Positions 41,335 through 47,209 of a stretch of 64,000 nt of DNA are shown here, one piece after another. Source of the DNA: Ureibacillus acetophenoni (GTDB lineage Bacteria > Bacillota > Bacilli > Bacillales_A > Planococcaceae); NCBI RefSeq assembly GCF_900220965.1, contig NZ_OBQC01000015.1:1-64000 (forward strand), given 5' to 3'. Within the stretch, counting starts at the first letter, position 1. Every line of letters begins with the position of its first letter. Below the pieces are notes generated by a model that saw nothing but the letters and a program-made list of their open reading frames with translations, was not told the DNA's origin and did not search any database. The position numbers were made by a program, and so were the translations under genes.

Positions 41335-41397
41335 AAAATTGTAATAGTTTTTGGGCTCAAGGGTGGTTGGCTCACTCCAGTAGAAAGGAGTGATGCC

Positions 41398-41481
41398 ATG
41401 ACAGTCTCAGAAGCACTAATGTTGGCAATTTCATTTTCAACATTAGTCATCGCGATCCTGTCTTTTAACGTAAAAAAATAA
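41398..41481 (+). CDS. Type I toxin, small holin-like membrane peptide
   Basis: 27 residues, MTVSEALMLAISF... then a hydrophobic helix and a VKK tail. This is the signature of the putative holin-like toxin family of Bacillales (related to TxpA). The 5' leader can hide the ribosome binding site: CACTCC (41372-41377) is complementary to GGAGTG (41387-41392). GGTTGGCTC in the leader can also pair with GAGCCAATC beyond the stop codon, folding the mRNA ends together as in other type I toxin mRNAs. An antisense promoter faces it from downstream. Overproduction should depolarise the membrane; this is inferred from the family. Confidence 0.85.
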   Translation: MTVSEALMLAISFSTLVIAILSFNVKK

Positions 41482-41617
41482 CCCACCTTTGAGTTGGTAG
41501 CTCAGATGGGTTAGGTAATACCTTCTTTTCTGGAGCCAATCCCTTGTTGGGACCGACTATTGCAAGGACTGTTTGATGTTGCAGCATCAAGCAGTCTCTT
41601 TTATTATTTATGTTGTT
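41472..41617 (-). ncRNA. Antisense antitoxin RNA (RatA-like)
   Basis: A minus-strand promoter at 41624-41652 faces the toxin gene. The transcript from about 41617 would cover the toxin mRNA's 3' half and end at a hairpin AACCCATCTGAG/CTCAAAGGTGGGTT (41481-41513) followed on that strand by ATTTTTTT. The length of about 145 nt and the overlap with the toxin 3' end match known antisense antitoxins. Confidence 0.65.
41567..41606 (+). terminator. Terminator of the toxin mRNA
   Basis: GACTGTTTGATG pairs with CATCAAGCAGTC followed by TCTTTTATT. Confidence 0.75.
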
Positions 41618-43308: not shown

Positions 43309-43524
43309 GTGAAATATTTTGCGATTTCGTTCATTGCAGGTGTGTTTTTATTTCTGTATATTATTTTCCCAATTATGGATGCCTTAGAGGTTCCAAGACC
43401 CTTTGAATTTCTTGGAATATTTATTGCTCAAAACCCATTTTGGATCGGTGTTTTCGGTTCATTATTAATATTAATTTTTCTAGTTTTTTTATATAAGCTG
43501 ATTAAGAGAAGGAAGTACGTTTAG
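43309..43524 (+). CDS. Small two-helix membrane protein
   Basis: 71 residues with two hydrophobic helices (about 4-24 and 42-62) and a basic KRRKYV end. GTG start behind GGGGTG. It converges on the YcaO gene with a shared bidirectional terminator, so it is not part of that operon. Function unknown. Confidence 0.65.
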   Translation: MKYFAISFIAGVFLFLYIIFPIMDALEVPRPFEFLGIFIAQNPFWIGVFGSLLILIFLVFLYKLIKRRKYV

Positions 43525-43602: not shown

Positions 43603-44811
43603 TTACGGAAACGGATGAGGTTTTAAATTTAACTCTACTCCGTCCGATAATCTTTGTAGTCTCTCCGACTCTAAAAGCGCTTCTTTTTCATATGGTAAAA
43701 TTAATAAACTCGGAGTAACCACTCTCAAACTGACTAAATTTAATTCTCGAATATCAACTGTTGTTAAATCTTTATAATAAATATCCGTTTGACTCGCGAC
43801 AGACTGAATCATCTCTGTAAACGTATATTCTTGTTCAATTGATTCAAAATTCTTCACTTCTATTTCAGGGCTAATTACTTCTGATAACACACTGTCATCA
43901 AACCCTTTGAAATAGTAATAAGTAGATCCTTCTTTCGACATGTCTAAGTCAGAATTTGAATGATAGACACTCTTTTCTTGCAATGTGACGTATCCACTAA
44001 TCGCTTCTTCAATCGACTTTTTAATAGCTTTACTTAATTTTCGGTTCGTTGATGCTGTCATATAAAAACCTATTGAATCATTCGCCTTAATTACAGTCAA
44101 TATTGTAAAGGATTTTATTTCTGGTTGAGATATATCATAAATCCGAAGCGAGTAATTCATATTTTCCATTGACTGTATTAATTTATTTAGTTTCTTAGTT
44201 TTTAAACTATCTAATGAAATTTCATAGTTTACTTTTCTCAATAACCATGAAAGCATAAATGCATCTTTTTCTATACATTCATTCAAAGCATTTTCAAACG
44301 CAGCGTCAAAACATGGCCCAGATGCTAAACCTGTTGATACAACATCTCGAAACCTTTTGTATTGATTTGGTATTAACAAGTAAACCGTTTCGATAGGTAA
44401 ATAAACTGTATCACCTGTCATATAGTTGTTGGCTAGAACCCAATTATGTTCACTATTCTTATTATACTGTTCAAACTTGTCTTGATTTGCATATTGCTCA
44501 TTTGTATATCGATTGAAATGTAGTGGCGGAATGCATGGATAGTCCAAATCATTAATTGGTCGCTTTACAATATCTATTGGGTTCATAATTCCAGCACAAT
44601 AGCGCTCGATCGCTTCCCCTACTGCATGGGATTTCGCTACATGGTAATCCATAGAAAATCCTGTTCCTGGAAAGATCCTTTGACCACTTTTTTGTTTAAT
44701 TATGGCCATATATCGATGAAATTGGTTGTTCATCATACTTATAGGAACACTTTCTATCGTATGGATTAGCTTTTCTTGATACTTTTTAGAACCGTTTACA
44801 TGATTCATCAT
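43603..44811 (-). CDS. YcaO-domain cyclodehydratase (TOMM D protein)
   Basis: 402 residues. YcaO proteins activate a peptide backbone amide with ATP to make azolines or thioamides in RiPPs. The ATP/Mg motifs are present: SHAVGEAIERYCA (an SxxxExxER block) and ALNECIEKDAF (ExxxExxQ-type), and the protein ends in PHPFP, the PxPxP-type C-terminus characteristic of azoline-forming D proteins. ATG at 44811 follows AAAGGGGTG; the same frame continues upstream through 21 codons to the stop of the E1-like gene. It is second in an operon with that gene, divergent from an NprR-like regulator. Confidence 0.92.
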   Translation of the reverse strand: MMNHVNGSKKYQEKLIHTIESVPISMMNNQFHRYMAIIKQKSGQRIFPGTGFSMDYHVAKSHAVGEAIERYCAGIMNPIDIVKRPINDLDYPCIPPLHFNRYTNEQYANQDKFEQYNKNSEHNWVLANNYMTGDTVYLPIETVYLLIPNQYKRFRDVVSTGLASGPCFDAAFENALNECIEKDAFMLSWLLRKVNYEISLDSLKTKKLNKLIQSMENMNYSLRIYDISQPEIKSFTILTVIKANDSIGFYMTASTNRKLSKAIKKSIEEAISGYVTLQEKSVYHSNSDLDMSKEGSTYYYFKGFDDSVLSEVISPEIEVKNFESIEQEYTFTEMIQSVASQTDIYYKDLTTVDIRELNLVSLRVVTPSLLILPYEKEALLESERLQRLSDGVELNLKPHPFP

Positions 44812-44874
44812 TAGCACCCCTTTTGCTTTGAAATAGATTTGCCCAAAAACAAGCGACCTCTTTTCTTCAGTCAA

Positions 44875-45378
44875 TCAACATGGCTTTTGCGATAAATAGA
44901 CAGGACCCATAAATAAACTACCGTCTGCTATACCAAATTGAATCAACGGTACGTTTATTTCCCTTGATAGTTCTGATACTTCATTAAAGAAAATAGTCTC
45001 ATAGTCAAAATCAAATGCAATAATGATATCTACTTTAAAATTCGTTTTTTCGATGTTTTCTATATGATTAACTCGTATATCGTGAGCAAAATTCTCACTA
45101 CTAATACATTGCTGTATTTCTTCTGAAAGGTTTTTAGTTATAATTAATACACTTTTATCCTCTTTCGAATGGAACTTATTGAGTAGACCTTGAGTAAAAA
45201 GTTTATTTAAGGTGTTGTTAATTAGTGAAATTGACTTTTCTGATAATGTTTCAATATTCTTTTCGTTATTTAACTTTGAAGCAAATCCACTTGTTCTTAC
45301 CTTATTATATGAAGTTACTTTTGATCGGAATATTACATTACCAGATTCAATTTTTCTCTCTTGAAGTTTTGCAAACAT
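44875..45378 (-). CDS. TOMM C-like (ocin-ThiF/E1-like) cyclodehydratase partner
   Basis: 167 residues from an ATG with GGAGGG. The C-terminal half (VDIIIAFDFDYETIFFNEVSEL, then IQFGIADGSLFMGPVYLSQKPC) matches the bacteriocin cyclodehydratase / ocin-ThiF-like domain, which binds the precursor leader and activates YcaO. It is shorter than full C proteins and ends exactly at the Cys of the usual G-P....C(L.C) motif, at a TGA that is in frame with the following YcaO frame. It may be a short natural form or a C-D fusion broken by one nonsense codon. Confidence 0.75.
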   Translation of the reverse strand: MFAKLQERKIESGNVIFRSKVTSYNKVRTSGFASKLNNEKNIETLSEKSISLINNTLNKLFTQGLLNKFHSKEDKSVLIITKNLSEEIQQCISSENFAHDIRVNHIENIEKTNFKVDIIIAFDFDYETIFFNEVSELSREINVPLIQFGIADGSLFMGPVYLSQKPC

Positions 45379-45464
45379 ACTCATCCCTCCATTTCTTATA
45401 GGAACACTTGATTTTATCTTTATGCAAATTATTGAAATCAATTCATCTACCTGTGTTACTATTA

Positions 45465-45492
45465 ATTATAGGACATTTCTGAATTTTTCAAA
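45465..45492 (-). promoter_or_regulatory. Promoter of the YcaO operon
   Basis: On the minus strand TTTGAA and TATAAT are 16 bp apart, with start near 45458. The poor -35 suggests dependence on an activator. Confidence 0.6.
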
Positions 45493-45516
45493 TCGAACAA
45501 ACTTTATCAACAACCC

Positions 45517-45529
45517 CCACTTAAAGTGG
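45517..45529. promoter_or_regulatory. Candidate operator CCACTTAAAGTGG
   Basis: A perfect 13-bp palindrome centred about 65 bp upstream of the YcaO-operon start site and within the divergent intergenic region. A related AAGTTAAAGTG lies at about 45601. It is a candidate binding site of the adjacent NprR-like regulator. Confidence 0.45.
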
Positions 45530-45648
45530 TGTTATAAAACAAATTTGAGGAAAGTGAGTCTACCTTTCTCTCTTTTTATGAAAGTTTGACTAAATAATAT
45601 AAGTTAAAGTGCCAAAAAAAATCCCGTTTGTGAAAACATTGAATGAGA

Positions 45649-45676
45649 TTTAACTTTTACCAACTTTATGTAATAA
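45649..45676 (+). promoter_or_regulatory. Candidate promoter of the NprR-like gene
   Basis: TTTAAC-16 bp-TAATAA, 25 bp before the regulator's start codon. Confidence 0.35.
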
Positions 45677-45701
45677 TGAGATTAATTCGGAGGGATTTAA
45701 T

Positions 45702-46973
45702 ATGAAAATAGGAGATATTATTAAATTCAAACGGATTGAACAAGGAATTAGCCAAGAAGAACTAGCACAAGGAATATGCACCAATTCCTATTTAAGTCGT
45801 ATTGAAAACAACCACGTCACACCAGACGAAGAGATCTATCGTCTGCTACTTGGAAAACTTGGAGCGGACTATGATGAGGTTATCTACAGCTCCATAGAAA
45901 TGGAAAAAGATCTCGATGACTGGTACGCGCATTTAACTAAAAAAACTCCTTTAAAAAAGGAGTTATCACATTATTTAAACCTCGAGAGTCAACTTAACCA
46001 AGGTTTAGTTATTAAATATAAAATCATCTATTCGCGTTATCTTTTAACTATTGAAAAATACAATCAAGCGAAAGAGATTTTGGATGATGTGTATCAAGTT
46101 TTACCTAGTCTAAATAATTATGAAAAATTTATTTTCATCAATACTTATGTAGTTTGTTTTACTATTTTAAATAAAAATGAAGATGCAATTCAAATTTTCG
46201 AAGAGTATACGCAAGACCACAATATCAATTACGGTACAAAAGAAGAACATGGAAATTTATATTACAATATCGCTCTTTGTTATAGACGTATTCGTTCCTA
46301 TAAAGCTTGTATTGATTACGCAAAAAGAGCTTTAAATGAATATAGTGACCAATATCATCTTAACCGAATGGTGCAGACTCTGGTACTTTTAGGTATTGCA
46401 TATAACAATATCTACGAATGGGACAAATCGATTAAATATTATAAACAAGCCTTACATATTGTGGAACAGCTTAATATTTTTTCTGATTATGAAAAAATTA
46501 TGATTTATAACGACTTAGGTTATTGCAGCGAGTGTCAGAATCAATATTATGATGCTATACATTATTATCAATCTTCCTTAAAAATTGAGCCAAATAACTT
46601 TAATATATTATCGAATTTAGCAAGAACTTATTATAAAATTGGAGATTTTAAAGAAGCAAAAGTTTACTTAAATAAGGCAAATCAGGTTATGGAATCTACG
46701 AAAGTGAATGATTCATATATCATTTCTAATAATCTACTGAATTGCTTATTATTTATAGATTACAAAGATATGGATGAAATATTCACAACCTTAAATTCTA
46801 ATTTTCCACATATCGTAAAAAACCGTATCTATGAATTAATCATATTCTACTCAAAAGAATTTGGTGCGATATTAGAAAAACATAAGTTTTATAAAAAAAG
46901 TAATGAGCTCTATAAATATGCCTTTGATGCTTACGCAAATCTCTTAAAGGGAGGTGAAAAGAACAATGTCTAA
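45702..46973 (+). CDS. NprR/PlcR-like quorum-sensing regulator (HTH + TPR)
   Basis: 423 residues. The N-terminal HTH_3 domain (IKFKRIEQGISQEELAQGI...YLSRIENNHVTPDEE, 1-60) is followed by nine or so tetratricopeptide helix pairs to the C-terminus. This order and length match the RRNPP regulators, especially NprR, which bind a re-imported signalling peptide in the TPR groove. A secreted-peptide gene overlaps its 3' end, the standard RRNPP arrangement. It is divergent from the YcaO operon, its likely target. GGAGG ribosome binding site. Confidence 0.92.
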   Translation: MKIGDIIKFKRIEQGISQEELAQGICTNSYLSRIENNHVTPDEEIYRLLLGKLGADYDEVIYSSIEMEKDLDDWYAHLTKKTPLKKELSHYLNLESQLNQGLVIKYKIIYSRYLLTIEKYNQAKEILDDVYQVLPSLNNYEKFIFINTYVVCFTILNKNEDAIQIFEEYTQDHNINYGTKEEHGNLYYNIALCYRRIRSYKACIDYAKRALNEYSDQYHLNRMVQTLVLLGIAYNNIYEWDKSIKYYKQALHIVEQLNIFSDYEKIMIYNDLGYCSECQNQYYDAIHYYQSSLKIEPNNFNILSNLARTYYKIGDFKEAKVYLNKANQVMESTKVNDSYIISNNLLNCLLFIDYKDMDEIFTTLNSNFPHIVKNRIYELIIFYSKEFGAILEKHKFYKKSNELYKYAFDAYANLLKGGEKNNV

Positions 46974-47127
46974 CAAAATGAAAAAAATAGTTCTAGCACT
47001 TGCTTTAGTATGTGGATTCGCAGTTTATACTGCTTCTCCTACAGAAGCTTCAATCCATGAAATCGATCCAAAACCAGCTCTTAAACCAATGAGTATCGGA
47101 ATTGGTGGATTCACATTGGATCGCTAA
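46966..47127 (+). CDS. Secreted small peptide, candidate signal or RiPP precursor
   Basis: 53 residues, starting within the last codons of the regulator gene (8-bp overlap) with GGGAGGTG at good spacing. Residues 1-28 are a signal peptide (KMKK, hydrophobic core, TEA). The exported tail (about 29-53) reads IHEIDPKPALKPMSIGIGG followed by FTLDR. Length, overlap and signal peptide fit Phr/PapR/NprX pro-peptides, whose C-terminal 5-10 residues bind the regulator. The tail has Ser43 and Thr50 that a YcaO enzyme might cyclise; that is speculation. Confidence 0.8.
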   Translation: MSNKMKKIVLALALVCGFAVYTASPTEASIHEIDPKPALKPMSIGIGGFTLDR

Positions 47128-47171
47128 TTATTGTAAACCTTCTAATTTAACCATATTTCGTTAAAATGCCA

Positions 47172-47209
47172 CTTTGGTCTGAACTTGCATTGTTCAGATC
47201 CTTTTTTTA
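47172..47209 (+). terminator. Terminator of the regulator-peptide operon
   Basis: GGTCTGAAC pairs with GTTCAGATCC (one bulge) followed by seven T. Confidence 0.85.

Follow-up and report, generated by a model that had tools for sequence, protein, structure and literature searches.

The window analyzed in the present study is the whole 64,000-nucleotide stretch of Ureibacillus acetophenoni contig NZ_OBQC01000015.1 (genome G000 of our set), and its subject is a four-gene cassette in which a gene for an E1-like protein and ycaO follow one another on the minus strand and those for an HTH-TPR regulator and a small secreted propeptide follow one another on the plus strand, the two pairs running outward from 45.4-45.7 kb (Table 1). 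The regulator and propeptide form an RRNPP (NprR-like) pair, which stands back to back with a predicted reduced azoline-forming YcaO/E1 synthetase and probably controls this synthetase directly. The pairing of YcaO with an RRNPP-type switch looks real on the basis of gene content, because relatives with full clusters carry similar switches next door.

Regarding YcaO, which a sequence-only reading of this DNA had recognized by SHAVGEAIER, ECIEKDAF, and a C-terminal PHPFP, all of these motifs were present (the second as NECIEKDAF), and the Pfam YcaO model matched at 138.5 bits against a cut-off of 25.7. The SagD-family model TIGR03604 was covered at positions 1-377 of 377 with 180.8 bits, which is under its cut-off of 219.25, and the McrA-glycine thioamidation model TIGR03266 also matched below its cut-off. 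Columns E66, E69, and R70, E178, E181, and D183, E269, and PHP.P were invariant among YcaO and its homologues from complete clusters (10 sequences), and the matches in the PDB were MJ1094, MusD, TruD, LynD, and McbD. The ATG at 44811 has a better ribosome-binding site than the alternative TTG start. This protein, the only YcaO in the G000 genome, appears to be a D protein, as the cyclodehydratases of thiazole/oxazole-modified microcin (TOMM) pathways are called, of the type that forms azol(in)es in ribosomally synthesized and post-translationally modified peptides (RiPPs), and ATP-dependent cyclodehydration is predicted for it.

The upstream partner had been described as ocin-ThiF-like, a label that is corrected here. 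It is an E1-like protein for which hhalign showed homology to 'TOMM leader-binding' partners of the E1-like kind (97.6%, E 4.5e-12), but it does not belong to the ocin_ThiF family: no NCBIfam match of that kind was obtained at E<=1, and HMM scans gave no significant family match. The profile searches that the sequence-only reading proposed accordingly recovered YcaO and, in the regulator, HTH_3 and TPR, but not ocin_ThiF. The alignment to full partners stops just short of the GPCxxC zinc motif, and the CxxC...CxxC cysteines retained in all seven full-length E1 partners are absent from the Ureibacillus protein. Foldseek matches of its structural model, the confidence of which was low (pLDDT 62, with residues 1-41 unmodelled at a pLDDT under 50), included MusD (7u58, the best), MccB, LynD, and McbB. 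A VIA-align ranking was rejected as evidence for an E1 protein since methyltransferase and phosphoribosyltransferase folds dominated at Z<8 and E1 proteins were not singled out. The partner is a TOMM protein of the E1-like kind in truncated form, its zinc-binding cysteines having been lost.

The divergent gene encodes an HTH-TPR protein, the length of which had been likened to that of NprR, and this likeness extended to the fold. The protein combines an N-terminal HTH with a C-terminal TPR superhelix, as do RRNPP receptors of the NprR type; phmmer matched NprR to its TPR part (E 1.6e-8), and an AF2 model (pLDDT 89, 19-row alignment) retrieved NprR 5dbk at rank 1 in Foldseek (E 3.7e-9), followed by Rap and further NprR chains. 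As in NprR-NprX of the Bacillus cereus group, the propeptide gene overlaps the receptor stop, here by 8 nt and with a strong ribosome-binding site, GGGAGGTG; the Ureibacillus pair differs in that identity to NprR is approximately 18% in the Foldseek alignment and its neighbour is a peptide-modifying pair. The 53-residue secreted peptide noted at this position was confirmed, secretion being judged from its sequence, and it is co-conserved in three species, namely that of the window and those of genomes G010 and G016; U. manganicus DSM 26584 and a Ureibacillus metagenome-assembled genome are relatives of the window. Its identity to the window copy was 75 and 55% in G010 and G016, respectively, with ratios of nonsynonymous to synonymous substitution (dN/dS) below 1, and the three C-termini read GGFTLDR, GGYTLDR, and TSYTFDY. 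Peptide matches in G019, G024, and G017 were weak and were rejected, those in G019 and G024 being signal-peptide similarity in other contexts. The stretch after the peptide stop (47128-47190, ATTTCGTTAAAATGCCACTTT) and its equivalents in the relatives (L037 and L038) were invariant in the three species and better conserved than the C-terminal codons of the peptide itself, and GTTAAARTGCCA is common to this stretch and the divergent promoter region.

Distant homologues of the regulator in two further genomes (G232 and G195; L029 and L030) are also NprR-like and overlapped by genes for 49-51-aa secreted propeptides, and have other gene neighbours. No YcaO was present in the flanks read or matched in the YcaO search (E<=1e-60); therefore, the regulator-propeptide pair has an RRNPP anatomy that is independent of YcaO. 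This bears on the possibility that the propeptide is itself the substrate of YcaO, which would yield a backbone-modified quorum signal. Its gene is the only one for a short secreted peptide in the cassette, and a Thr four residues from the C-terminus is conserved in the three species. However, the predicted mature part has no Cys, the pairs without YcaO carry similarly placed propeptides, that of G232 ending in KTFSYTIEK, of which FSYTIEK resembles the Ureibacillus GGYTLDR, and full clusters hold the pheromone and precursor as separate genes. Among the substrates compatible with direct control of the synthetase, the pheromone is the least likely and a very improbable one.

The divergent intergenic region contains a near-palindrome, CCACTTTAAGTGG, centred approximately 53 nt upstream of TATAAT and conserved in all three species, which is a candidate operator. 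In the form CCACTTNAANTGGNGGT, it has one exact match per genome in these species, at the cassette locus. No good -35 element was seen for the E1-ycaO promoter. As a separate observation, the motif CCACTTGAAATGTCGTT forms a regular array with 52-base spacing in U. manganicus (G010, contig C21, 18719-19359), which is a tandem repeat elsewhere in the genome.

Table 1. Features of the cassette and its flank (positions in the window).
Feature	Position	Strand	Remarks
Two-helix membrane ORF mem71	43309..43524	+	71 aa; tail to tail with ycaO
YcaO (azoline-type D protein, predicted)	43603..44811	-	402 aa from ATG; C-terminal PHPFP
YcaO, alternative start	43603-44874	-	423 aa from TTG at 44874
Truncated E1-like (C-protein-like) YcaO partner	44875..45378	-	167 aa
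Divergent intergenic region, regulator/E1	45379..45701	.	69-81% identity between species
TATAAT, -10-like hexamer of the E1-ycaO operon	45465..45470	-	Consensus match only
Near-palindrome CCACTTTAAGTGG, candidate operator	45517..45529	-	Present in all three species
HTH-TPR regulator, RRNPP/NprR-like	45702..46973	+	423 aa; Pfam HTH_3 and TPR
Secreted propeptide, candidate pheromone precursor	46966..47127	+	53 aa, MSNKMKKIVLALALVCGFAVYTASPTEASIHEIDPKPALKPMSIGIGGFTLDR; Sec-type N-terminus

Among 25 genomes of this genus of soil bacteria, YcaO was found in only three (G000, G010, and G016). These three alone also hold the E1-like partner and the peptide together with a close regulator (78-84% identity), and the genes share one order and orientation, which answers the question of four-gene co-conservation raised by the sequence-only reading. 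The cassette is flanked by a doxX-like and a parA-like gene. Since these two genes are adjacent in G022, which represents the empty site, and the nudix-parA stretch of G011 and G015 has no such block, the cassette is a discrete unit that was gained or lost as one. The ORF mem71 is co-conserved in G010 and G016 (38-60% identity over the aligned parts) and was not found at the empty site. Between species, identity was 69-81% in the spacer of the regulator and E1 genes, compared with 56-65% in that between the peptide gene and doxX and 32-48% in the spacers on either side of mem71. By the NG86 method, with dS near saturation, dN/dS was 0.10-0.15 for ycaO, 0.24-0.34 for the E1-like gene, and 0.08-0.13 for the regulator gene. 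The block has been kept in two further species under purifying selection, and a chance arrangement is therefore excluded. A phage or viral origin was rejected, no YcaO relative being present among viral contigs or phage records.

The loss of the precursor, SagB, protease, and transporter genes, the truncation of E1, and the long branch (1.32) that leads to the Ureibacillus YcaO clade might also be expected of the remnant of a decaying azol(in)e cluster that no longer has a function. However, the ORFs are intact in three species at near-saturated dS, the promoter region is highly conserved, and because of the evidence for purifying selection, notably in ycaO, a dead remnant is quite improbable.

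Searches with YcaO, the E1-like protein, and their alignments, and not with regulators, yielded six further independent loci: one on a plasmid of strain OF4, one shared by G071 and G077 (counted once), and those of G245, G235, G092, and G409. All six combine a precursor, a full-length E1 with CxxC...CxxC, YcaO, and a SagB-type dehydrogenase, which was identified by HMM in G245 and G092, by annotation in OF4, and by similarity in the others, and many of them have an exporter of the MFS or ABC type and a protease of the DUF2268 type. The precursors contain IQAGCCCGGG (OF4), LLQAGCCCGGG (G071/G077), LLQAGCC in tandem copies (G245), LLQAGSCGATSGGC (G235), and GCCCGGG (G409), and that of G092 ends in GGCAACCVACCTTCSTK. 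By gene content, these loci are azol(in)e RiPP clusters and show the azol(in)e ancestry of the Ureibacillus pair; the YcaO tree did not single out any complete cluster as its closest relative. In G245 (L065, 8773-17031), the tandem precursors, YcaO/E1, and SagB are accompanied by a LanB-like dehydratase in two parts (762 and 282 aa) beside an RRNPP-type pair, and a product with both azoles and dehydroamino acids is possible. The complete cluster of G409 (L069, 7270-16455) is directly followed by a large gene of the nonribosomal peptide synthetase type.

An HTH-TPR regulator adjoins the YcaO/E1 operon at five of seven independent loci (Ureibacillus, OF4, G071/G077, G245, and G092). The sequence-only reading would have been refuted had homologues of the YcaO pair consistently lain away from regulator-peptide pairs, and this test was decided in favour of that reading. 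The sample is small, and the background measure is the single full-length regulator of this type in the G000 genome. The regulators of the four related loci are of PlcR or NprR size and are divergent or one gene off, three of them with an adjacent secreted propeptide: 300 aa and divergent in OF4; 292 aa, PlcR-like at 77 bits, and one gene from the operon in G071/G077, with a 54-aa secreted propeptide located 3' of it in G077; 458 aa and divergent in G245, with a 42-aa secreted propeptide directly after its stop; and 420 aa, divergent, and matching NprR at 58 bits in G092, with a 62-aa propeptide overlapping its stop. The regulators of OF4 and G077 share 35% identity and match the NprR-size regulators in the HTH only, so that these loci use no fewer than two types of receptor.

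Several observations weigh against direct control of an active synthetase by the RRNPP pair. The complete clusters of G235 and G409 have no adjacent HTH-TPR regulator, and no clear pheromone gene was found adjoining that of OF4. A genome-wide operator regulon was sought and rejected since near-matches to the palindrome were not enriched over a reversed control. Leader binding by the E1-like partner is uncertain because of the lost zinc cysteines and the 41 unmodelled N-terminal residues, and searches by core pattern and for local ORFs found no substrate for the pair.

Among the loci compared, that of OF4 (Alkalihalophilus pseudofirmus, plasmid pBpOF4-01, NC_013792.1) is similar in that its YcaO is 35-36% identical with a PHPFP tail, the E1-like partner lies just upstream, and the HTH-TPR regulator is divergent. 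It differs in having a linked precursor with a QAGCCCGGG core, the full-length E1 with zinc cysteines, SagB, a NAT homologue, a Zn protease, and an MFS transporter, as well as a PlcR-size regulator. The nearest functional precedent is provided by the streptococcal Rgg/SHP-regulated radical-SAM RiPPs, such as tryglysin (PMC8092268), which, like the RRNPP-adjacent clusters reported elsewhere (PMC10075063), have a receptor and propeptide beside RiPP-modifying genes; their chemistry is that of radical SAM enzymes, whereas YcaO azoline-type chemistry is predicted for Ureibacillus, in a cassette with no precursor. RRNPP_detector listed 196 RRNPP-adjacent biosynthetic clusters, of which RiPPs were the most frequent (PMC10075063), and some of the complete clusters described here may already be among them. 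Our literature search found no paper naming both YcaO and RRNPP. The present results document a recurrent pairing of an RRNPP receptor with an azol(in)e (YcaO) synthetase across several genera of Bacillales, supply candidate inducing peptides for clusters that are likely silent in the laboratory, and offer, in a minimal pair with no precursor, a way to ask what role YcaO plays once the usual RiPP parts are gone.

Under direct control, the 53-aa propeptide would be trimmed after secretion, and the C-terminal end (approximately GGFTLDR) would be re-imported and bound by the TPR regulator, which would then switch the divergent E1-ycaO promoter, in whichever direction, through the conserved near-palindrome. 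YcaO would use ATP to cyclize Cys, Ser, or Thr residues in a substrate that the short E1-like partner presents to it. Since neither a dehydrogenase nor an exporter is linked, an azoline and not an azole is the expected product, which would serve within the cell or be dealt with by general machinery.

As the sequence-only reading had noted, the cassette and its neighbourhood lack a transporter, protease, dehydrogenase, and Cys-rich precursor, and its suggestion of an unusual or unlinked product remains apt. A precursor and SagB are linked in all of the homologous clusters found but missing here, and the absence of these genes from the Ureibacillus cassette thus reflects reduction. Since E1 is truncated and none of the genes for a precursor, dehydrogenase, protease, or exporter is linked, the substrate is presumably encoded elsewhere or not a classical precursor. 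Production of a RiPP by the pair is unproven because no substrate was found.

Two accounts of the substrate, both forms of direct control, need to be weighed. It is quite possible, although short of probable, that the product is a classical azol(in)e RiPP and that the gene for its short precursor lies at another site in the genome. Unlinked precursors have been documented for heterocycloanthracins in a survey of TOMM families by Cox et al. (PMC4603692), and selection maintains both YcaO and its E1-like partner; on the other hand, an exporter, protease, and SagB are not linked, E1 is truncated, and the GCCC core of the family is absent from G000, G010, and G016 (the last being 76% complete), except for a chance match in coaE of G000. 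A hidden precursor ORF upstream of E1, its position in most relatives, was rejected in three frames in the three species, and no conserved small Cys/Ser/Thr-rich ORF occurs within 38-52 kb.

The alternative that the pair acts, under density control, on a target other than a precursor, such as a host protein, in the manner of free-standing YcaOs is rather unlikely. The lack of a precursor, exporter, and protease, an E1 truncation suggestive of altered leader recognition, and profile matches of YcaO to MJ1094 and, below the cut-off, TIGR03266 are in its favour, while the SagD type, PHPFP tail, and E1-like partner are typical of cyclodehydratases, and neither a TfuA-like partner nor a target was identified. 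Taken more broadly, the proposal that a quorum-controlled YcaO/E1 pair lost its RiPP precursor and now serves as a density-regulated modifier of a non-classical target, which may be a host protein or, in the most extreme case, the pheromone, can only be tentative.

Outside the cassette, the window contains a BsrG-type RNA of a type I toxin-antitoxin system (41340-41593, plus strand; Rfam RF01412, 101.9 bits). Its 27-aa toxin ORF (41398-41481, plus strand; MTVSEALMLAISFSTLVIAILSFNVKK) is identical across the three cassette-bearing species.

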